Assembly: GCA_024305405.1 (NCBI GenBank)
Contig: JAKNDB010000103.1
Span: forward strand, 3,038,001-3,102,000
Direction: 5' to 3'
DNA from: Dirofilaria immitis
Taxonomy: Eukaryota > Nematoda > Chromadorea > Rhabditida > Onchocercidae
DNA length: 64,000 nucleotides
In this document: piece by piece, positions 17,014 to 64,000 of the stretch
Layout: each line of letters opens with the position of its first letter
Numbering within the stretch: position 1 is the first letter of the stretch
Made by a program: the position numbers and the translations under genes
The notes under the pieces: model-generated
Database searches by the model: none
Told to the model about the DNA's origin: nothing
Seen by the model: the letters and a program-made list of their open reading frames with translations, nothing else

Positions 17014-17504
17014 ATGAATTCCATTCTTCGTATTTTCTGGCAAATCGTTTCTTTAGCAGCGACATTGTACATCCTCAAAGGTAACTAACTGTTAATGCTA
17101 ATATCTGATTTTTGAATCACAAAATCAAATTCCTGATTGACACTCATTTGATTATCACAAAATTATTTCGACCAGCAAAAGTTTTCAAAAACAAAAATGT
17201 CTACAACACCTGGGATTCCCAGGCCGTCTCCGATCCAAGTACTAACCAGGCCCAACGTTGCTTAACTTGACAGATCGGACGAGATGTCGTGCTTTCAACG
17301 TGGTATGGTCGTAGACATCTTACATTGATTTCAATTCTAAGATGAGAGAAAAAATTATCGTATAATATTAATACGGTATAGAATATCATTTAAACTGGAT
17401 TACATGGATGGAGTGAACAGGCAGTAGGTTTATTTATTCTATTCTTAGTCAATTTAGCATATTCAATTCTGATATTGAATAATATTGATAATGAAGATTG
17501 CTGA
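17014..17504 (+). CDS. Possible two-exon small membrane protein
   Basis: Exon 1 (17014-17080) opens with ATG and encodes MNSILRIFWQIVSLAATLYI plus LK, a signal-peptide or signal-anchor-like helix, and ends in a good donor (G|GTAACT). A candidate second exon starts after TATAG at 17382 in matching phase (EYHLNWITW). It then needs a one-base correction near 17411 to read WSEQAVGLFILFLVNLAYSI and a stop at 17502-17504. The predicted product is about 65 residues with two hydrophobic helices. No family was recognised. If real, its intron contains the 5S rRNA gene in antisense orientation. The frame break and small size keep confidence low. Confidence 0.3.
17185..17198 (-). terminator. Pol III T-run after 5S rRNA
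   Basis: Directly past the 3' end of the 5S gene the minus strand reads ATTTTTGTTTTTG, two runs of five T, the usual RNA polymerase III stop. Confidence 0.75.
17199..17316 (-). rRNA. 5S ribosomal RNA
   Basis: The minus strand from 17316 to 17199 reads as an ordinary metazoan 5S rRNA. It begins GTCTACGACCATACCACGTT and ends CCCAGGTGTTGTAGAC, so the 5' and 3' ends pair as the terminal helix. The internal promoter boxes for TFIIIA/Pol III are visible (AAGTTAAGCAACGTTGGGCC and GTACTTGGATCGGAGACGGC). The RNA is a structural part of the large ribosomal subunit. Only one copy is present, with no tandem array and no recognisable spliced-leader gene beside it. This differs from the 5S/SL1 clusters known from several nematodes. 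Confidence 0.95.
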
Positions 17505-21863: not shown

Positions 21864-23940
<2,077 letters not shown>

Positions 23941-40059: not shown

Positions 40060-41260
40060 ATTTTATGCCGCTTTTTCTATTCCATGTCGTTCTATTCTGT
40101 TCTTATTTATTTTTCCATTCCTGCCGTTTTTTCTATTCCATATCATTCTATTCTGTTCTTACTTGTTTTTCCACACTTCTATTTCATGTCATTCTATTCT
40201 GTTTTTATTTTTTTCCATATTGACATTAATTAGTAGTTCTATGCTGCTGTTTTTTTATCCCATGTCATTATATTCTGTCCTTATTTGTTTTTCCACACTT
40301 GCTTTTTTTCTATTCCATGTCATTCTATTCTGTTTTTATTTATTTTTTCCATATTGACATTAATTAGTAGTTCTATGCTGCTGTTTTTTTATCCCATGTC
40401 ATTATATTCTGTTCTTATTTGTTTTTCCACACTTGCTTCTTTTTCTATTCCATGTCTATTCTGTTTTTATTTATTTTTTCCACATTGACATTAATTAGTA
40501 GTTCTATGCTGCTGTTTTTTTATCCCATGTCATTATATTCTGTTCTTATTTGTTTTTCCACACTTGCTTCTTTTTCTATTCCATGTCTATTCTGTTTTTA
40601 TTTATTTTTTTCCACATTGACATTAATTAGTAGTTCTATGCTGCTGTTTTTTTATCCCATGTCATTATATTCTGTTCTTATTTGTTTTTCCACACTTGCT
40701 TCTTTTTCTATTCCATGTCTATTCTGTTTTTATTTATTTTTTTCCACATTGACATTAATTAGTAGTTCTATGCTGCTGTTTTTTTATCCCATGTCATTAT
40801 ATTCTGTTCTTATTTGTTTTTCCACACTTGCTTCTTTTTCTATTCCATGTCTATTCTGTTTTTATTTATTTTTTTCCACATTGACATTAATTAGTAGTTC
40901 TATGCTGCTGTTTTTTTATCCCATGTCATTATATTCTGTTCTTATTTGTTTTTCCACACTTGCTTCTTTTTCTATTCCATGTCTATTCTGTTTTTATTTA
41001 TTTTTTTCCACATTGACATTAATTAGTAGTTCTATGCTGCTGTTTTTTTATCCCATGTCATTATATTCTGTTCTTATTTGTTTTTCCACACTTGCTTCTT
41101 TTTCTATTCCATGTCTATTCTGTTTTTATTTATTTTTTTCCACATTGACATTAATTAATAATATTATGCTGTCGTTTTTTCTACTCCATGCCATTCTATT
41201 CTATTCTTATTTGTTTTTCCACATCTGCCGTTTTTTCTATTCCATGCCATTCTATTCTGT
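40060..41260. repeat. 132-bp minisatellite array
   Basis: Regular units spaced 131-132 bases (CCACACTTGC motifs at 40427, 40558, 40690, 40822, 40954, 41086), with more diverged units to the left and right. Inside each unit is a roughly 60-base half-unit built on TCTATTCCATGTCATTCTAT and TTCTTATTTGTTTTTCCAC. Because 132 is a multiple of three, one plus-strand frame stays open across the array (40419-41564). It encodes a hydrophobic 44-residue repeat with no sign of a start context, introns or a family. Confidence 0.95.
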
Positions 41261-42773: not shown

Positions 42774-43312
<539 letters not shown>

Positions 43313-44542: not shown

Positions 44543-44550
44543 AACCAAAG

Positions 44551-50956
<6,406 letters not shown>

Positions 50957-52522
50957 TCTGAATAATGATGATAAACAACTTCATCACAAAATATCAGATT
51001 CTCAAATATCATTTATGGTTGTATTCCTATGCAAAAATATTGTTTTTGTCAACATTATTTGGTTGTATTCCTGGTGAATTATTGTGGATGCTAGTTTTCT
51101 TTTGAATGTTGTATAGGTGGATATTTTAGACGGGAAGAAACTTCTGCTTTTAGAAAATTCTTATTCATGTTTGAGATAAGCTTATTTTCTTCGTTTTACT
51201 TACGTTAATCAGAGATTGTGATAATCTTTGGTATTCAAAAAATTTTTGGCGAAATCTTTGATGGGTTCATAAATTAGAAACTGATTATTCTCCATAATGT
51301 TCCAATAAGAGGATTGGATCTTTCATAACTCCATGTTACTATTTATATGGGCAAGTTGTTTTTGCTAAATTAGTAGAGTAATTTTCTAAGAAAATATGAA
51401 TCGAAAATACTTCATTTTTAAATTTTATTGTTGATAAGTTATATCCAAGCAATATTTTTGGAGCGCAAAAGCTTTCTCAAATATGTTGAAAAAATATCAA
51501 TTGTAAATGCATTCAAGAATATATATTACACTAAAATCCTGGACTCTAACTTTGACAGATAAATTGTTAGTAATGGAAAAAGTAATTTCATATTTATTTG
51601 TTTAAGTTGATTTTAGAATTAAAGTTTCTAAAAACAAATGCAGCCGAAAAATTTCCATGATTTATCAATTTGTTGTTTTCACGTTCCTAGGATTCTGGTG
51701 TCAATAAAGAAGTAAAAATTTGTTTGATTCAAATTAGAATTTTTATTTACCTAAATAATAATATGATCTATCACATGCATTGAGAATGAAAGAATGTAAA
51801 TCAAAAATTATTATGGCTGAAAATTCATTTTTCTTAATATATTAGGAAATGAATTAACAGTCTTTTCTAAACAATTTCATATATTTTTAAAAATACTTAT
51901 ATTTTTAATGATATCTTAGTAGAATATTGACAAATTTTTTTCTGGATAAAATTTAATCCATAATTTTAGCATAAGTTATAGCAAATTATAAAAATTAAGC
52001 AATATATCAAATTTCATCGATCGATTAATATTTGTTTAAAATTCATCATTCATTTTTCATATTAAATGATTTTCAGTTAGATAATTTCACTGATATTATG
52101 ATTATATTTTCAGTATGTAAATTAATTTAAAAATATTGTCCCGATTAATCAAAATAATCTCAAATAATTCGATGATAAATAGCTTAATTAATTTTCTTTC
52201 TTTCTTTTTTTCTTTTTTTTTTCCTTTTTATACATTCCATGAAAATATTTTTTGACAAATTGTAATGATGACTAAGTTCTATTATTTCCTTTTAATTAAT
52301 TACGTATATATATATATATATATATACCTTTTTCATTGATATTTATTAGTAATAATTTTTCAGTGTCTTTTATTCATTTTATATGTTACTATTTTTATTA
52401 AAAAATAAATATATGTGTATGCATAAAAATGATATTTAATTGATTTTCTTTTTTTTTTACATTTCAAAATACTCATTAGAATTGGAAATAACATAAAATG
52501 AAAATATTATTATTATTATTAC

Positions 52523-52576
<54 letters not shown>

Positions 52577-53800
52577 CATCGAAATGCAACTTATTTTACA
52601 ATAAAGAAAAGTGATAAAAGAAGAATTAAATCAAGAAATGATAATTACACGATTTTATTATTGATAAGTATCAATCAAAATAAGTAATAGAAAGAATTTG
52701 TTATGCTCTGTGCCAAAGGCTTGTTATTATTTATTTATTGGCCCCGAAGAAAGATGCAAATATCATTGCTAAGTTGCTATAGCTATCAGATTGATTATAA
52801 TTAAATATTAATGCCCTCAAATGCTGATAATGATTTCAGGAAGGTCGGTAATTGAGCGCAAAGAGGAATATAGGCTTAGTATTTAATGAAGAGATGACGA
52901 GAGCATAGAATGGATGAATTGGATATCCTTAAACTATATTGTCATCCGGTTGGGCAATTTTAATCTTAGTTTTTGCTCTTTTCAAAAAAAAAAGTATTTT
53001 TTAAAAAGTTGGTGGAGTTAGAAGAGGAAAAAATGATAGATGAAAAGAGGGAGAGAGGGAGAGAAAGAGAGAGAGAGGGAGAGAGAAAGAGGTAGAGAGA
53101 AAATCTTGAGAGTTTTGTTTTCGCCCATTTTTCCTTCCTTCAGTCTGGATGTGAAATGAGTTGATGGTGATAGCGATGCTCGCTCGCTCTTTTTATAATC
53201 CAAACTTTTTCTCCTGGACCAAACAATCTTTTCGTACCTTATTGAGCCCGAAATGGCTTCTTTTTTTTCTCAAATTTTTTTTTTTTTTTTAGCAGCAGTT
53301 TGTTCGGCGCCTTTGTCATTTTCCTTTTCCATCAAATTGTTCCTTTCACATCAATTAATGTATGTATGTATGTGTATCTGTAGATGTATAGATATATATA
53401 TATATATATGCATGTATGTATGTATGTATGAATGAGTGTATGATATTGCTTTACTTATGCACTTTAAAAAGATTTTTTTATTCTTAAATTTTGAATAAAA
53501 GTTGAATTTAATTAATTTTTTTAGTTCAACAAATTTTTCATAAATTTTATTATTTTGCAAAAGAAATTTTTGATTTAAATATATCTATTGGTTATAATAT
53601 CATTTTAGTAAGAAATTTGCATAGTTTTGAACAAATAAACTATTAAATTTAAGCGTATATTTTCTATTTTTGCATTTTGTAAAGATTTAGATTTTGCTAC
53701 GTTGATTATTTTTATAAAACCAAGCTAGCTAAGATAAGCATAATTATAGATTCTTACGCAAATATATATCATAAGACTAATTACGAAATAGCAATATTAT
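50957..53800. other. 3' region of nsf and intergenic DNA
   Basis: No exon seen. A candidate AATAAA lies at 51703-51708. It contains (TA)n near 52304-52326, an (ATT)n run at about 52507-52576, GAGA repeats at 53045-53100 and a TATG/ATGT repeat at 53359-53430. Open frames at 53018-53203 and 53253-53435 are repeat- or T-run-derived. Confidence 0.5.
52507..52576. repeat. (ATT)n microsatellite
   Basis: About 23 ATT triplets, one ACT interruption. Confidence 0.95.
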
Positions 53801-53810
53801 AATTTACTGA

Positions 53811-55312
53811 ATGGATTCAGAATCTGGAAATGGTTTCGAAAGTGATGAAAATAGCAATAGCAAAGGTATATAATCTTTTTTAATTTTTTTTTTTTGTTTA
53901 ATATAATTCTAATTATTTTTATTTATTTATTTTAGATAATGGAAAAGCTATTTTATTTACAACAACACGGCATCGTTGTAAACTTCAAGAAGATGGATAT
54001 TTTTATGTTTTTGATAAAATGAGTACAAATGGTCAAAAGAAATTTTGGCGTTGTGAAAAGAAAAGTACCTGTAATGCACGAATACATACTGATGCTATTA
54101 CTAATGAAGTAAAGATTTTTTTTTTTTAATGAAATATTTAATTTTAAATATTTTGAATAAATTTTCATTCATTTAAATAAATCTTTATCAGAATTAATGA
54201 TTGATATTATGATAAGATTTGATAAAAATTATCATAAATTGAAATGATAAAAATTATGATATAAACAGATTGTGAAACGAGCAACGCAACATAATCATCC
54301 ATCCAGTTTAGTGCGATCATCCGTTCAACGAAAAATTTTAAAACGACAATCGGATGAATTGTTTACAAATGAGGAAATATCAACGAAGCAACGAACACCA
54401 TCTGTTGAATCTCTTCTTCAGGAAATTATGAAGGCATCTGGATTTAATTCAAATCGTAAAATTTTCAAAATATTTGATAAATTTAAAAATTTTTTTACTG
54501 ATAAACTGATAACGATGATGTAGTTCTGGATTAGTTATAAAATGATCATAATAAGATAAAAATTTTTTAATTGCAGATTTAGTTGATAATATAATGACTT
54601 GATAGGAATGAGATTCGAATTTTAGTGTAAATTTTGATATGATCAAATTTTAAAATTACAGAAACCGAAGAAACTCTAACAAATCTGAAAAAGAATATGG
54701 TGATATAATTTCTCAATGCTGTCTTCATTCGTTATCACCAGAAGGAATGATTAATTATCGGAAGTTAATCAATCTAGAAACAGCAGAAGTATCAACAACA
54801 AATAAGATTGAGAAATCATTTCTGCGAACCAATACCAAATCGATCAGTGAACAACAAATTTCAACAAGTTCCGGAATGGAACAACTAGGTGTTAGTTTCT
54901 TCTTTTGAATTTAAAGAAAAAAAATTGAAATATATAAAAATTCATGTAAATATTTTAAAAATTCAATTCAGGTAATTTAGATGTATGAAGTTCAAATCCT
55001 TCTGAAGCATAAAGTAACCTAAAAAATATAGCACGCACTATCATATTAGTCGATCAAGTAAGTGTAAGCAGAATAAATCGTTGCCATAATTTGTCAATGA
55101 TAAAATGATACATGGAATTAGGAAATAATTTTAAACTTTAGCTGAAGCTGAAGAAAATGATGGATTTCAACTTTTACTTCGTCTAACCAGTGGTAGTTTT
55201 ACATTTTATGGTAATGAAATTAATAAGATTATCGATGATGGTACACAATTTTGCGCAATGGCATCAAATTCAAATTTATCGAAATCTTTCTCATTGCTTA
55301 TAAAAGGTATGA

Positions 55313-55348
<36 letters not shown>

Positions 55349-57254
55349 ATTTCATCCAACTCTATTACGTAATTTTATAATATTAAATATAGACCTTTCA
55401 TTATCATTTAATTTTATTCATTATGTATAAATATAGCAAGATATATTTTACATTTATTTAAATATAGCAAATATTGATTTATTGATTGAATCAAAAATCA
55501 ATGAATATGATTACAGGTGCCGAAAAGACGGGTAAATCATGTTTGGCAACTTTAATAGCTAAAAATTCCGGCATTCCTTCTATAAAAGTTTGCCTTCCAG
55601 AAAATATGTTAAAATTAAATGAGGAAGCAAAAAAATAAAATTAATTGATCTTTTTGAAGAAGCTATTAAATTGCCACAATGCATACTATTTCTTGATGGT
55701 CTCGAACTTTTGATTGGTATGTTTTGGGTAATTTCTTTAATTGATAAAATTCACTCTAATCCTCTTCATCTAAGTGTAATTTGGATCTATTCTTTTTTTT
55801 TATCCGCAAAATTTATATTTATGCGATTTGATAAAGTCGACTTTATTCTCACTTAACAATTTGTGATTCTTCTTATCATCATAGATAAGTAATTTTTTAT
55901 TTCTAATTTTTTTTAACAGATAATCTATAAATCTTTTTTCTTTTTGAATTTTGATTTCCAGAATACTGTGATGTTGGCGATCGTTATTCAAGCATTATTT
56001 TGCAAACAATTAAATTAATTTTGAAGAAGGGTGAAATATTGGAGGTATATGATGATGATGATACATCATAAATTTGACTTTTTTTTCGATGATCTTTTAT
56101 ATGGTAGAATTATAAATTGAAGAGATAAGACTTATTATTAGCTTAAAATTAATTATTTTTCAGTCTCCTTATCATTTCATCCTTTATATATGATAGAATG
56201 GTAAAGTGAAGAGATGAGGCTTATCATTAGCCTAAAATAAATCATTTTCCAGCCCTTATCATTTCATCCTTTATATGATAGGATGGTAAAGTGAAGAAAT
56301 GAGGCTTACTATTAGTCCAAAATTAAAGCTATAAATTACTTTTCGGTTCTTATCACTTCCATTATATAGTCGAATGGTAAAGTGAAGAGATGAGGCTTAT
56401 CATTAGCCTGAAATCAATCATTTTTCAGCGTCCTTATTACTTCATCCATTATATAGTCGAATGGTAAAGTGCAGAGATGAGGCATATCATTAGCCTGAAA
56501 TCAATCATTTTTCACTATCTTTATCATTTTATCCCTTATATGGTAGGATGGTAAAATGAAGAGATGAGGTTTATCATTAGCCTTAAATTAAAGCTATCGA
56601 TCATTTTTCGAGATTCTTGTCATTCATTTCTATTTCTCTCTTCTATTCTATCAAAAAATTATGCTAATACAAAACCGAGAAAATCAATTCTCATATATCA
56701 ATCATATAAATTTTTTAGAATAATCGCTTATTAGTGATAGCAACAGTTACCACTGAATGTGCGGAAAAATTTGACTTACAACGTTATTTCTCATCAGTGA
56801 TTAAAGTACCTGTTTTAACTAAAACTGAACGAATAATATCAATAATCGAATATGCTAATATATTGAATAAAGCTGATTATCAAATACTTCGAGAATATTT
56901 GATGAATGATACGAATAGGTAATAAAACAAATTTTAACATTATTTTTTATAAATTATTTCGAAATGTTTAATTTTATTGAGGAGAAAAACAAACATATAA
57001 ATCATCTTAAAATCATCTATTTAAAAAATCATACAATTGATTAAGACAATATTTGAATTTTTATTACAAATATTGTTTCCAATAATCTTTCTCGAGATTT
57101 TTTTAATAATTCTCGAGATTTTAATAAATCTTTTTTTTGTAGCTATAAAGTTGGTATCAAAAGTTTGTTAACAACAATCGAATTGGTAAAACATTCGACA
57201 ACAACAAATCGTTTACATACACTTCTTCAACATCTTTTACAATGGAAACAATAA
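53811..57254 (+). CDS. Chimeric FLYWCH zinc finger - NSF D2-like ATPase protein
   Basis: Nine exons in continuous phase: 53811-53865, 53936-54108, 54269-54455, 54662-54888, 55142-55306, 55517-55716, 55962-56044, 56719-56918, 57143-57254. They give about 467 residues. Residues ~19-95 form a FLYWCH zinc finger: ILFTTTRHRCKLQEDGYFYV, FWRCEKKSTCNARIHT and the zinc His pair QHNHP. In nematodes this domain is known from DNA-binding proteins such as PEB-1 and FLH-1. A Ser/Thr/Gln-rich linker follows. From about residue 230 the sequence matches the NSF D2 domain: Walker A GAEKTGKS, Walker B ILFLDGLELL, then YCDVGDRYSSIILQTIKLIL, NNRLLVIATVTTE, VPVLTKTERIISIIEYANIL and GIKSLLTTIELVKH. Four intron positions and phases equal those of nsf. 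One missing A is inferred in the runs at 54688-54692 and 55629-55635. The gene lies 2.9 kb downstream of nsf on the same strand. I infer a partial tandem duplication joined to a zinc-finger gene. It lacks D1 and the N domain, so SNARE disassembly is unlikely. Two separate genes remain possible, but phase at 54888/55142 fits one. Confidence 0.75.
55317..55344. repeat. T homopolymer run
   Basis: An unbroken run of about 28 T in intron 5 of the chimeric gene. Confidence 0.95.
56095..56620. repeat. ~88-bp tandem repeat in an intron
   Basis: Six imperfect copies of a unit containing AAGTGAAGAGATGAGGCTTA and TTATCATTTCATCCTTTATA, at a spacing of about 84-90 bases. It lies in intron 7 of the chimeric gene, between exons 7 and 8 of the D2-like part. 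Confidence 0.9.
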
Positions 57255-57405
57255 GAAGTAATAATTAAAATATAAATTATTTCTCGAAATTATTCAAAGA
57301 TTTTTTTCTTCTACAAATATTATTTGTATAATTTAATAATAATTAATTGTTAAATTTAAATTAAGCAAAAAAAAAGAACGAACAAATGACATATTTGCTT
57401 TTGTA

Positions 57406-57449
<44 letters not shown>

Positions 57450-59710
57450 TATTTTAATTGTAAATTTCCTATTTATTTTGAATTGTTTCTTTTTTTTCCT
57501 TTTGAATTAAAAATCGATCATGACAAGTGATAATATATCATTAAGAACTCATTGTTTTTTTTCTTTCCATTCCATATTTATCATATTCTCGATTTGAAAT
57601 CGATCACAATTCAACAGTTTGCAAATTTTGAATAATATACTCGATCGTAATCGATCAAACCTCAACAGTTTGCAAATTTTGAATAATATTCTCGATTTGA
57701 AATCGATCACAATTCAGCAATTTGCAAGTTTTGAATAATATTCTCGATTTGGAATCGATCACAATTCAGCAATTTGCAAATTTTGAATAATATACTGATC
57801 GTAATCGATCACAATTCAAGAGTTTGTAAATTTTGAATAATACATTGTTTATTGTCTCATAAAACAAATCATACTAACAATTTCCTAATTCTCAGCGATT
57901 TCTAATACTTTTTCCAATTTGATCGATCATTAATTGCGATTAATTTTTCTGTTTTTTCAAGTATTGAAAATTAAGATAAAATGATATAATTTTAAAATCA
58001 TTTAATACTACTATTTCTCATAAAAAAATTAATCATTAAGCAATTTCTTCGAAATGTTATCAAAAAGATAAGTGTTATGCATGATAAAATGATAAGATAG
58101 CTTAATAGATTTCATTCCTAATAAATCAAAAAAAAAAACCATTGTTATATTATCATTAAAATGATATCAAAGCATTCTGTTTTTTTGTTTTTCAATTAAG
58201 CAAATATTATTTTAATTATTGCAATGGAAAAAGTTTAATTTTTCATTTTCATTTATAAATATGAATATTAAATAATAATATGCAAAATTTTCTATTCAAC
58301 AATCACATAATAATATTCAATCTAATTTTATTTAATACATTACAACAAATTACTTTCCATAAAAGATAACAATTAATATTTATTATTAATTTAACCAAAA
58401 GAAAACGGAAGAAGAAGAAGAAGGAATTAAAAGAGAAAAGAAATTTAAAAAAGAGCTTATAATTCAAAATGCTAATTAATCAAAAATTTATAATTAAAAT
58501 TATTAATTAATTAAATAAAATTAAAACTTAAATTGTTAATTATATAAGTAAATTAAAATTCCATCAATCATTTACCAATTAAATGCAGGAATTATTTTTT
58601 TTTGAAAGAAAAGGAAAATGTTTGAAAGTTTACCAAAATCCTGATAGACTTTGGTTGTCATTTTTTTTTATGAAATATGAAACACTACTCCACAATTTAT
58701 CAATAGTATTTTTTGAATATTTCACTATCGATTGTATATCAAAGCTCATATTCTTTACCTTTATATCAAACTTCTTCGATTTCTTTATAAGTCCATAGAC
58801 TTCAGATGCCCTAAGTAGTAAGTAGAATATGAATGAGATATTTTAAAATATAATAAATAAGCACGATCAGATGATATAAACACTCCTCTAAAACGTATAA
58901 TAATAATAAAGGATGGTTCAAAGGATTGATTGATTTTTATATTTCTATCAAACTGTTTTTTTTTCTTGAAGTTTATTTTTGAAAATAAAACGCTAAATTA
59001 AGTTTTATTTAAGTTTATTTATTTTCCCTTTTTTTTTTATAAAACAAATATGGAATATCGATTGTTAAATAGAACGATGGTTTGATATATCAGAAGAATC
59101 CTTTTTCTTTTTAGGAAAATCTAATCTAATTTTCATTTCATTTTTCCTCTTCTAAATATTCTTTCCATCTTTGCAATAAAATCAATCATAAATATCGACA
59201 ATTAGTTTTCAAAAAAAAAAAAATAGTTCAAAAAAAAAAGAATGGAAGAAATTAAATTTAAAAATAAAATATAAATTGATTAAAAGATATAATATATTTA
59301 GGCATAGATAGTAATAATTGAACAATTTTAGGAAAAGGAAAGAGAGATGAAATTAATAAAATTATTTAAAAATAATTGGAAATGCTTTACTTATTTTTCT
59401 TTTCTTTTTATAATAAAATTATTTCAAAATTTTTTAATTTCATATTTAATCACAAAATGTATAAAATTTCTTTTTTTTGAATAGATTTTTCGCATAAATT
59501 AAGCAATAATTTTCTAAAAAAAAAAAAAAGAAAATCTTCAAAAAAGCGCAATAGTTTTATTAAACAATTAAAAATATAAATTATAGAAAAGTTAAAAAAA
59601 AAAGAGAGAGAGAGAGGAAGTAGACAGATTACAGTAATATTGATGGATGAAATTTGATTGCTATATCATTTTTATAAATTTAATGATGAAAAAAAAGAAA
59701 AAGGAAAAAT
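57255..59710. other. Intergenic, repeat-bearing
   Basis: No supported exon. It holds an (ATT)n run at about 57410-57447 and the repeat at 57590-57845. An open frame at 58583-58798 has no recognisable content or splice context. Confidence 0.5.
57590..57845. repeat. ~52-bp tandem repeat
   Basis: Five copies containing TTTGCAAATTTTGAATAATA and TCGATTTGAAATCGATCACA. The latter has the short palindrome CGATTTGAAATCG. Confidence 0.9.
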
Positions 59711-59715
59711 GCAAA

Positions 59716-62700
59716 TTATCCTGGACAAAAAAGGCAACGAATAAAATTAATCACCAAGCTAGCGATAAATAAAACAAACATTATCACCAGTAATGCGAGA
59801 ACCCATTCCTGAAAAATTTATTTCAAAATTTAATACCAAATAGATTTTATCAGTAATTTAATAATATTACATATATGTTTCATTGATAATTTAATACTAA
59901 ATATGATTATATAAGTAGTTCGGTATTAGAGAGATTTTTATAATGAAAGAGGAAAAAAATCATTTCAATATTTATTTTGATTTGTTTAAAATTCTAGACA
60001 TTCTATATCCTATGTATGATTTAAAATGATCAAACAATTTGATAAATGATATTGCATTGATCTTTATCATTACTTTTTTTTTAGCAATTAATAACTCACA
60101 TTAAAATTCCAATTTGCAATGCATGTATAAATTTAATTTCATTGCTTCATAAAATACATTTATGAATTACATTTATTACTATAAAAAAATTTTATTGAAT
60201 CAATCATGATAATGAATATATGATATTCATTATCATAAAATAATGATTAAAATTATATGAAATTGAAATAATTCATTATCATAAAATAATGATTAAAATT
60301 ATATGAAATTGAAATAATTCATTATCATAAAATAATGATTAAAATTATATGAAATTGAAATAATTCATCATCATAAAATAATGATTAAAATTACATGAAA
60401 TTGAAATAATTCATCATCATAAAATAATGATTAAAATTATATGAAATTGAAATAATTCATTATCATAAAATAATGATTAAAATTATATGAAATTGAAATA
60501 ATTCATTATCATAAAATAATGATTTTTAATATAATTTTGAATTTAAAAAGATTTTTGTTTATAATATTCCTATAATATACATATATATGTTTTTTTCGAT
60601 CAATTATTCATCCTTGATTTTATTGAAAGATAGTGAAATTATTATTTATTATGAAAAAGAGAGAGAATTTGTTTACTAAATTCTCAAATATAAATTTTAT
60701 GTATACTCTCATATAAATATTATGATGATAAATCTTTAGTTATAATCAATGGTGATAAAAATGTTGATAAATCTTTAGCTATAATCAATCATGATAAGAA
60801 AAATATCAATTGTTTCATTTAAAAAATAATCTCTCTCTCTCTGCCTCCCTTTCTCGCTCTCTCTCTATCTTCCTCTTCCTTCGTCTCTTTCGCATTATAT
60901 TCCATTTTTATCTTAATATTTACTAAATAATTGATTAATTCCAATCAGATTGATTGATCAATTTCAAATTGAATTAAATTAAATATTCAAATCAAATCAT
61001 CGATGCAAATTTATCAATTAAATTTTATATTTAACATAATTTTTTTTCATTATCAATTGATAAGTAAAATATTGAAAATTTGTTTATAAAAGAATATTCA
61101 AATGTAAATATAAATTGATTAAAAATCAAAAATTTTACAAAAAAAAAAGAAATTTGTAAAGTTTATTGATAAATTTTTTTTGATAATTATTGTTTACTAA
61201 TTGATAATTGACTAAATTTATTGTATGAAAAGAAGAAAAACATTTCAATATTTTTTTAATTAAAATAAAATAATTTCAAATTTGAATTAAATTTATTCAT
61301 TTCAAATTATAGATATTATTATCATTAAAAAAACTTTTCCAAGTTTATTTTTCATAAAATATATTATAATATTTGTGTTTTATTTTTTGTTTTTATAAGA
61401 AAAGAAAAATTATATAATTAATCTAATTAAGCGTATATATAATAAATAAATAATTAAGCATAAATTTTTATACCTGAAGCCTAAAACAACAGGAAGTATT
61501 TAAATCACCACAACAACGAAAATAATATAATATTGTCTCTTCTGGACATTGTTCACCAACAATAATTATTGGACATGCCGATGAACTTTTCCTAAAAAAA
61601 AAAAAATTTTTAAAATTAATTTGAAATATTAATTATCGGTAATTCAATTAATAAGTATAAAATTATTTATATATACTTTTAACAAAAAGTTTTTAAATCT
61701 TTCGATGTTATATTACAAAAAAAACAAAAATTTGAAAAAAGAGGACGATAGAAATATAGAAAGTAATATAATATTACAAAGAATATAAATAAATTAACTG
61801 AAAGAAAAGAAAAAAGAAAATTAAAAATATTTAGAAAATAAATGAAATGAAATAATAGGGAAGAGATTTTTAAATTTAAAAATTATAATTTACAATTTAA
61901 TTAATATTAAATATTATATTTTTAATTATTTCTCATTATTTCATGTTTTAATAAGTAAAAAAAGAAACCGTTAAATAAACAATTATAATAATAGAATTAT
62001 ATATTATCTTCGAATTGATAATATTTAATATAAATTAATTTAAAAAGGAAATTAATATATAAACAAATAATTCAATAATAGAATTATATATTATATACGA
62101 ATTGATAATATTTAATATAAATTAATTTAAAAAAAGGAAATTAATATATAAACAAATAATTGAATAATAGAATTATATATTATATACGAATTGATAATAT
62201 TTAATATGAATTAATTTAAAATAAAAAGAAAATTAAAATAAAAATTTTTGGAAAGTTATTATACGATACCTAATGAATCGTTCCAACAAATCGACTGTTC
62301 TATATGGCATTACTATTGTTTAAATGTATATTTTTAATGAATTTTTCCTAAATTAATTTAATACAAAAAAAAAGAATTTTTCCTTCGTTTGATATTTACC
62401 GAAAAATGACAAATTTGATGAAAAAGTCATAAAATAAATCTCGATCATCGACTATCAACCGATCAGAAGAATAAGGAAAAAAAAGGGCGAAGAAGACGAA
62501 GAAGAAAAAAGTATTATAAAGTTGAAATGAGCAAAATTTGTAGGATGAAAAATGGAAGTTTCATTTTTATTTTAAATTCTATTTCAACCAAATAAATATT
62601 AATTAATAATTTTAGATATAACAAAGAATAAAAATAATTTTTTCCTTTCTTTTATTTTGGAACTATTTTTTTATTTAAAAGAAAAAAAGCGAAACTTTTT

Positions 62701-63481
62701 TTTCAAATTCGAAATTATTTTCTCAAAAAGAAAATTTATACAAAATTTATTATTTCATTGATACATTCATTTATTTTGTTAAAATTGTGTTTTTTTAAAA
62801 GAAAAAAGTTATATTTGCTTATCATATAAATACCAATTTAAATATTTAATTGATTAAATATTAAGTAATATCAATGATCGATTCAATAATATTAAAATGT
62901 ATTACTGATATTACTAAAAAGTTTCAAATATTAGTTTAAATATGTAATTGATTAAATATTAAGTAATATTTGATTAAATATTAAGTACTATTAATGATGG
63001 ATTCATTAATATTAAAATGTATTGCCGATATTACTAAAAGTTTCAAATATTAATTTAAATATGTAATTGATTAAATATTAAGTAATATTAATGATCGATT
63101 CAATAATATTAAAAAGTTTTAAATAAGCAAGGAAAAAGAATATACTCTATTGATTATTAAAATTGAGAAATATAAAACTTATAAAAATTTGAGTAAAAAT
63201 TTCAATAAAAATTCTATTATTATAATATCAAAAAATGATTTAATTTATTTAAAAATTTATTATTCAAAATAATAAAACTGAAATTTAAAGCATTTACAAA
63301 TTTTTGAATTTGAAATCAATCAAAATTAATAAGCGAAATTAATTTAATTATTAGATAAAATTTCAACTTACTTTAATGCGAATATTTTGATACTATTGTT
63401 TTCATCGAAATTATCAATATATGTTTCCAAATTTGCTAAACATAAACTTGCTAAACATAGCAAATATATGTAATGAATCAT
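59716..63481 (-). CDS. Small Cys-rich type I membrane protein
   Basis: Three minus-strand exons in phase: 63481-63372, 61591-61474, 59808-59716. They give about 106 residues. Exon 1 is a signal peptide (MIHYIYLLCLASLCLANLET) plus a short acidic stretch. Exon 2 holds a compact Cys-rich module: ACPIIIVGEQCPEETILYYF followed by RCCGDLNTSCCFRLQ. The spacing is C-x8-C-x10-CC-x6-CC. Exon 3 is a single transmembrane helix (WVLALLVIMFVLFIASLVIN) followed by the short tail FIRCLFCPG and TAA. I infer a cell-surface or ER/endosomal single-pass protein. The signal peptide, double-Cys module, helix and short tail resemble the layout of Shisa-type and similar Cys-rich adaptors, but I do not claim membership. 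The two introns are long (about 1.7 kb each) and full of AT repeats. Confidence 0.65.
60190..60530. repeat. 46-bp tandem repeat
   Basis: About seven copies of a unit reading AATTCATTATCATAAAATAA then TGATTAAAATTATATGAAATTG, very uniform, in an intron of the Cys-rich membrane protein gene. Confidence 0.95.
61975..62225. repeat. ~78-bp tandem repeat, 3 copies
   Basis: Three copies containing AATAGAATTATATATTATAT and GAATTGATAATATTTAATAT, in intron 1 of the Cys-rich gene. Confidence 0.9.
62845..63115. repeat. ~110-bp tandem repeat, 3 copies
   Basis: Three imperfect copies with ATTGATTAAATATTAAGTAA and AATGATCGATTCAATAATAT, in intron 1 of the Cys-rich gene. Confidence 0.85.
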
Positions 63482-64000
63482 AATTTGAAAATCTAAAATT
63501 TTTAAATTTAATACATAAAATTATATTTTATTTATTATTTATAAAATATAATCTATTTTATATTATAACTATAGTAAATTTATCATTTGATTGATCCTAA
63601 ATTCCGATCAAAGTTTCATTCATATGTTTGATTTTACAATCTGATAAACGTAACACTTCTGTTTCGATATTACAATTATCAAAATCATTATCAAAAAAAT
63701 GCAAAACAAATATTATTAAATAATATAAGTTTGTAAAAAACCTTTACCTATGATTGTCTTAAAAAAAAGAAAAGAAAAAGGTTTTTATTTTCATCTAAAA
63801 CATTATTTATATGAATATGATAATGGATGATATATTTTATCAAATATGAAATGAATCATTTCTTTCTTAAAATTTATCAGAAAAGAAAAAAAAACATTTA
63901 TCAATTACAATTATCATTTTCAAATTATAATTAATTCAAAATTAATTATCAAAAATTTATTTGATATAAAACAATTTCTGATAGCTAAAAAAATTACAAA
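63482..64000. other. Intergenic end of window
   Basis: AT-rich upstream region of the Cys-rich membrane gene. No further exon was seen. Confidence 0.5.

Follow-up and report, generated by a model that had tools for sequence, protein, structure and literature searches.

A FLYWCH finger joined to an NSF D2-like domain in filarial nematodes: structure, apparent origin and possible function of a chimeric gene

Within the 64,000-nucleotide stretch of Dirofilaria immitis DNA analysed here (the window), nine plus-strand exons (53811-57254) code for a FLYWCH finger with an NSF D2-like AAA domain after it. Sequence evidence supports reading FLYWCH and D2 as parts of one chimeric gene specific to the filarial lineage, whose D2 part very probably arose when NSF was partially duplicated in tandem at the DNA level, with fast change and then constraint afterwards. 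Our favoured overall explanation, to which we assign a probability of about 0.5, is that this NSF-derived chimeric gene encodes a nuclear FLYWCH DNA binder assembled as a ring. The structure and origin of the gene, judged jointly, are close to certain; that its product would be a ring-assembled DNA binder is, on our analysis, somewhat short of an even bet.

The start codon at 53811 and the stop at 57252-57254 lie exactly where the first-pass annotation of this DNA had placed them (Table 1). All eight introns are of the GT..AG type, and the splice phases, in the frame of the 467-residue D. immitis database protein P0001, run 1,0,1,1,1,1,0,2. Taken in three frame-consistent pieces, the window gene aligns with 463 of P0001's 467 residues and departs from it in two places, so that the DNA comes from D. 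immitis or a very close relative. An alternative exon 3/4 junction that keeps the frame open (for example with a donor at 54519) was set aside, given that P0001 fits the junction 54455/54662 with no mismatches up to the A-run. The earlier statement that the phases all agree holds for the splice sites and fails within exons 4 and 6, where the assembly carries frame slips. Tandem repeats are found at 56097-56597 and 57583-57842; units of 87 and 265 bases occupy most of intron 7, and a 52-base repeat is located after the gene. Elsewhere, the window holds a 5S rRNA gene (17198-17316, minus strand; RF00001, 112 bits) and, at 40177-41253, a 132-base unit repeated in tandem 8.2 times (96% matches). 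This array is traversed by an open frame of 397 residues, probably owing to a unit length divisible by three.

Table 1. Coordinates, in the window, of the fusion gene, the neighbouring NSF gene and the eEF1A pieces
Feature	Position	Strand	Remarks
eEF1A gene pieces	21864-23351	+	first part matches mammalian eEF1A, 1.2e-99
eEF1A frame slip	22711-22716	+	A-run
Canonical NSF gene (N, D1, D2)	about 44543..50956	+	exact start approximate; frame slips within
NSF frame slips	46691-46695, 48397-48399	+	A-runs
NSF D2 exons	48928-49084, 49619-49819, 49959-50038, 50274-50476, 50836-50956	+	introns match those of the fusion in position and phase
FLYWCH-NSF D2 fusion gene	53811..57254	+	9 exons, start codon to stop
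Exon 1	53811..53865	+	start codon, acidic/Ser N-tail; ends in phase 1
Exon 2	53936..54108	+	bulk of FLYWCH finger including both Cys; ends in phase 0
Exon 3	54269..54455	+	FLYWCH His-x-His end (to 54298), invariant basic patch QRKxLKR; ends in phase 1
Exon 4	54662..54888	+	variable linker; assembly frame slip at A-run 54688-54692
Exon 5	55142..55306	+	D2-like domain begins; no in-frame ATG near exon start
Exon 6	55517..55716	+	Walker A and Walker B; assembly frame slip at A-run 55629-55635
Walker A GAEKTGKS	55517-55539	+	exon 6; intron splits first Gly codon
Walker B CILFLDG	55680-55700	+	exon 6
Exon 7	55962..56044	+	Lys at NSF K631 position (P0001 K358, 56024-56026)
Exon 8	56719..56918	+	NNRLLVIAT; Arg at NSF K639 and Thr at NSF T645 positions
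Exon 9	57143..57254	+	NSF-type lid end (YKVGIKSLL), stop

The gene is not confined to the heartworm. A search with the joined-exon protein gave six hits among 7994 scored candidates, and intact FLYWCH-D2 proteins are found in the database for five filarial species of the families Setariidae and Onchocercidae (Dirofilaria immitis, Brugia malayi, B. pahangi, Wuchereria bancrofti and Setaria digitata), all with the domain order that the first-pass annotation proposed to look for in related nematodes. Both Pfam domains are present in five of the six filarial hits, the sixth being a D2-only B. timori protein from a contig of 2,865 bases. With a profile as query, eight hits of 7997 candidates were returned, adding two distant AAA proteins only, and none of the three protein searches showed the fused architecture outside filarial worms. 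The third of these, a length-padded query for merged NSF and fusion models in Onchocerca and Loa, gave three hits among 3560 candidates and no orthologue (27% identity, 732 aa); it also missed nematode NSF and short split models would escape it, so that the result does not imply that the fusion is lacking in Onchocerca, Loa or further worms. In the distant pairs of orthologues, namely those including D. immitis or S. digitata, identity is 83-90% in FLYWCH and 75-80% in D2 as against 46-55% in the linker. Judged from these alignments, both ends of the protein are under constraint and the linker less so, and the fusion has apparently been constrained since before the split of Setaria from the onchocercids.

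It could be argued that predictors have wrongly merged two neighbouring genes, one encoding the FLYWCH finger and the other the D2-like domain, since the junction is known from gene models alone and a stop at 54521-54523, met if the exon 3 donor is read through, makes a short FLYWCH-only product possible. However, an identical join in five species with an alignable linker exon 4, the lack of an ATG near the start of exon 5 and splice phases consistent over all eight introns make this very improbable. Still more improbable is a decayed pseudogene in which both frame slips are real. The exons do sum to 1402 nt in the present assembly versus 1404 for P0001, and exons 4 and 6 are out of frame there; yet two other genes of the window, NSF and eEF1A, break likewise, and in the three genes in which slips were sought (the fusion, NSF and the first part of eEF1A) every one of the five (two, two and one, respectively) lies at an A-run. 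With all slips so placed and two of the three genes being basic and conserved, we read the frame slips of the fusion gene as assembly (homopolymer) error, and the pseudogene reading, which also conflicts with the intact database proteins of D. immitis and four further species and with domains more conserved than the linker, is rejected. Given the homopolymer errors apparent in the present assembly (86.7 Mb, 65 contigs), frame breaks reported from it need checking; a D. immitis nanopore assembly of 87.9 Mb in 110 contigs is described in excerpts of PMC9179477, and sameness of the two is not claimed.

Domain searches of the joined protein found both a FLYWCH and an AAA/NSF D2-type domain, as the first-pass annotation had proposed. 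FLYWCH (PF04500) is matched at 6.8e-13 across exons 1-3, above cut-off, as it is in all five fusion proteins, and C58, C64, H84 and H86 of P0001 (C..C..H-x-H), which we take to be the zinc ligands of the finger, are invariant in the five species. The protein of exons 4-9 matches AAA (PF00004) at 6.6e-7, above cut-off, and NSF_ATPase_lid at 0.0045, below it. Against solved structures, a profile of the five orthologues matches Sec18/NSF D2 at 1e-32 to 2e-28 (Sec18 1.1e-32, NSF D2 1.9e-29), the best non-NSF AAA protein being NVL at 5e-9; the D2-like part thus matches NSF far above other AAA proteins, and the aligned part in full-length NSF chains is D2, not D1. Each of the five proteins has a single AAA (PF00004) stretch, the D1 hydrolysing ring being absent, and no Pfam match to the NSF N domain at E<=0.1, in keeping with the earlier claim that the SNARE-handling parts of NSF are missing. 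NCBIfam gave nothing above cut-off for three of the five proteins, and an HeH/LEM match in two of the five was discarded as below cut-off and within the AAA domain. Structure models are of low confidence (pLDDT 42.5 for the whole protein, and 51.7): that of the D2-only database protein P0006 has NSF/Sec18 D2 as its first matches, and that of the whole fusion protein has no match at E<=0.001, its best being Sec18 at 3.7e-3. A single gene model of FLYWCH plus NSF D2, with N and D1 missing and with its order kept in five filarial species, is supported.

The source of the D2 domain seems to lie next door. The canonical NSF gene ends 2.9 kb upstream of the fusion on the same strand, and in a whole-genome search at E<=1 the NSF lid family has its one match there. 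At E<=0.01, P0001 has 11 matches in the genome, nine rows in the fusion and two in the adjacent NSF, with no further D2 relative beyond these. From Walker A to the end, all four introns fall at the same aligned residue and in the same phase (1,1,0,2 in NSF; 1,1,0,2 in the fusion), a match whose chance of 1 in 1.2e10 presumes random placement and is a rough guide only. The fusion D2 is 31.6% identical (73/231) to its NSF counterpart in this genome, 30.0% to Sec18 and 28.9% to the mammalian protein, so that pairwise identity leans only marginally towards the filarial NSF. In a tree that also holds three distant AAA proteins, the fusion D2 joins the NSFs (100/100), the nearest NSF not being separated, and its stem is 1.92 changes per column versus 0.28 for the filarial NSF end branch. 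It is the four shared introns together with the adjacency, itself an observation in the present genome, that argue for an origin by NSF duplication, identity alone being weak evidence. The adjacent NSF, overlooked by the first-pass annotation, is accordingly taken as the parent of the fusion D2. Its own D2 Walker B reads VDG versus the mammalian VDD, and an AAT unit repeated 178 times forms a very long trinucleotide array (42775-43312) directly upstream of the gene.

The intron before fusion exon 5 is in phase 1 and that before the NSF D2 exon in phase 0, a mismatch that places the join at the intron before exon 5 or upstream. No remnant of NSF N or D1 was found by tblastn in 50960-64000, and one 27-base blastn match between NSF and the fusion was judged to be chance. 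No source for the FLYWCH exons came to light in the genome, where the one other FLYWCH match is weak. That match (L005; G000:C58:2266731-2266829, minus strand; 28 bits) is by eye not close. FLYWCH factor genes are said to derive from Phantom/Mutator elements in excerpts of PMC12265568. The finger of the fusion is of a type like that of these Mutator-type transposons (Phantom); in contrast to them, the five fusion proteins have no transposase domain by Pfam.

In the D2-like domain (NSF numbering, counted from K549 on the 1nsf stretch), the fusion retains the Walker A Lys (K549), the Walker B Asp (D603), Lys at K631 and Thr at T645, with Walker A, the Walker B Asp and the K631 and T645 residues invariant in the five species. 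Arg stands at K639, as in filarial NSF and Sec18, and Leu at S569. The Walker B Asp is not followed by Glu, a feature of NSF D2 as well; the next residue is Gly in the Dirofilaria fusion (as in filarial NSF) and Ser in that of B. malayi. The basic patch QRKxLKR after the finger is likewise invariant in five species. In excerpts of PMC11532144, NSF D2 is reported to bind ATP tightly, to hydrolyse it slowly and to serve mainly in holding the hexamer, K631 touching the ATP of the neighbour, and part of PMC6160233 describes the D2 ring as nearly six-fold. T645 is tied to oligomerisation in excerpts of PMC4711005, yet T645A NSF still makes hexamers, and Thr at this position is therefore weak evidence for a ring. 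Overall, the residue pattern suits a non-hydrolysing assembly module.

These observations support a course of events, and a mode of action can be proposed from them. A partial tandem duplication of NSF left a D2 copy just downstream, carrying NSF introns, and this copy and the exons of a FLYWCH finger became one gene; with N and D1 absent, its product would be without SNARE handling and ATP hydrolysis. The protein would be nuclear and would bind DNA through the FLYWCH finger and the conserved basic patch, and its D2-like domain would bind ATP without efficient hydrolysis and act, as in NSF, as an assembly module presenting several (up to six) fingers per ring. On repeated or clustered sites such a ring may achieve high-avidity binding, its most likely role being repression, as for the worm FLYWCH factors. 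C. elegans FLH-1/2 are mainly transcriptional repressors, which may activate at one larval stage, according to excerpts of PMC12265568. In its most specific form, an ATP-locked D2 hexamer with six FLYWCH fingers would be a self-assembling gene regulator whose avidity is set by nucleotide-dependent assembly, a tentative idea that we hold less firmly than ring assembly as such.

Several points count against the ring. The fast divergence of D2 (a stem of 1.92 versus 0.28 for the filarial NSF end branch) means that the ring interface may be lost, and Leu at the S569 position and the low model confidence weigh in the same direction. A conventional FLYWCH factor carrying an unusual tail, in which the D2-like part forms no rings and binds no ATP and serves instead as a surface for dimerisation or co-repressor docking, would fit this fast divergence and an NSF_ATPase_lid match below cut-off in all five proteins. 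It is harder to reconcile with the invariance of Walker A, the Walker B Asp and the K631/T645 positions, and with a D2 conserved well above the linker, and we regard it as unlikely, though as the most serious competitor. Mixed rings are a further alternative, in which the D2-like domain joins the ordinary NSF D2 ring and regulates or poisons NSF, FLYWCH being a protein- or metal-binding module that does not touch DNA. The D2-like domain and the neighbouring NSF D2 are paralogues, the former keeping ATP-binding and K631-type positions, and a D2 without N/D1 could conceivably cap or dilute NSF rings. An identity of less than a third to the genome's own NSF D2 and the long stem nevertheless argue against a common interface, and finger ligands and a basic patch invariant in five species suit nucleic-acid binding; we thus consider mixed rings improbable. 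The ring-assembled FLYWCH DNA binder remains the functional reading that we prefer.

With respect to known systems, the fusion resembles NSF/Sec18 in its D2 motifs, has these as its top solved-structure match by sequence and by model, and has four introns in common with filarial NSF. It differs in having neither N nor D1, that is, no SNAP/SNARE-binding domain and no hydrolysing ring, in being only about 30% identical and in having FLYWCH in front; given the absence of N and D1, the database name 'Vesicle-fusing ATPase' is misleading for it. With C. elegans FLH-1, FLH-2 and FLH-3 it shares the FLYWCH finger (PF04500), to which it adds the NSF D2 copy; none of the three is known to have an AAA domain. 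The literature search found no paper describing a FLYWCH-NSF D2 architecture, and the part of the nematode FLYWCH literature covered, by title and start of abstract, held none with it. The earlier remark that no family of this kind has been described is thus upheld for papers and needs amending for databases, where the proteins already stand under automatic names. We file the gene as two known domains in a new, conserved and lineage-specific union with a traceable birth.

NSF is known for one essential job. Here the birth of a gene can be read in the DNA, with the parent NSF, an adjacent copy, common introns and a new partner domain all in view. An NSF hexamerisation domain freed from its parent and joined to a zinc finger offers a direct test of D2 as a general assembly module, and the ring regulator, if true, would be an NSF domain used outside membrane fusion.
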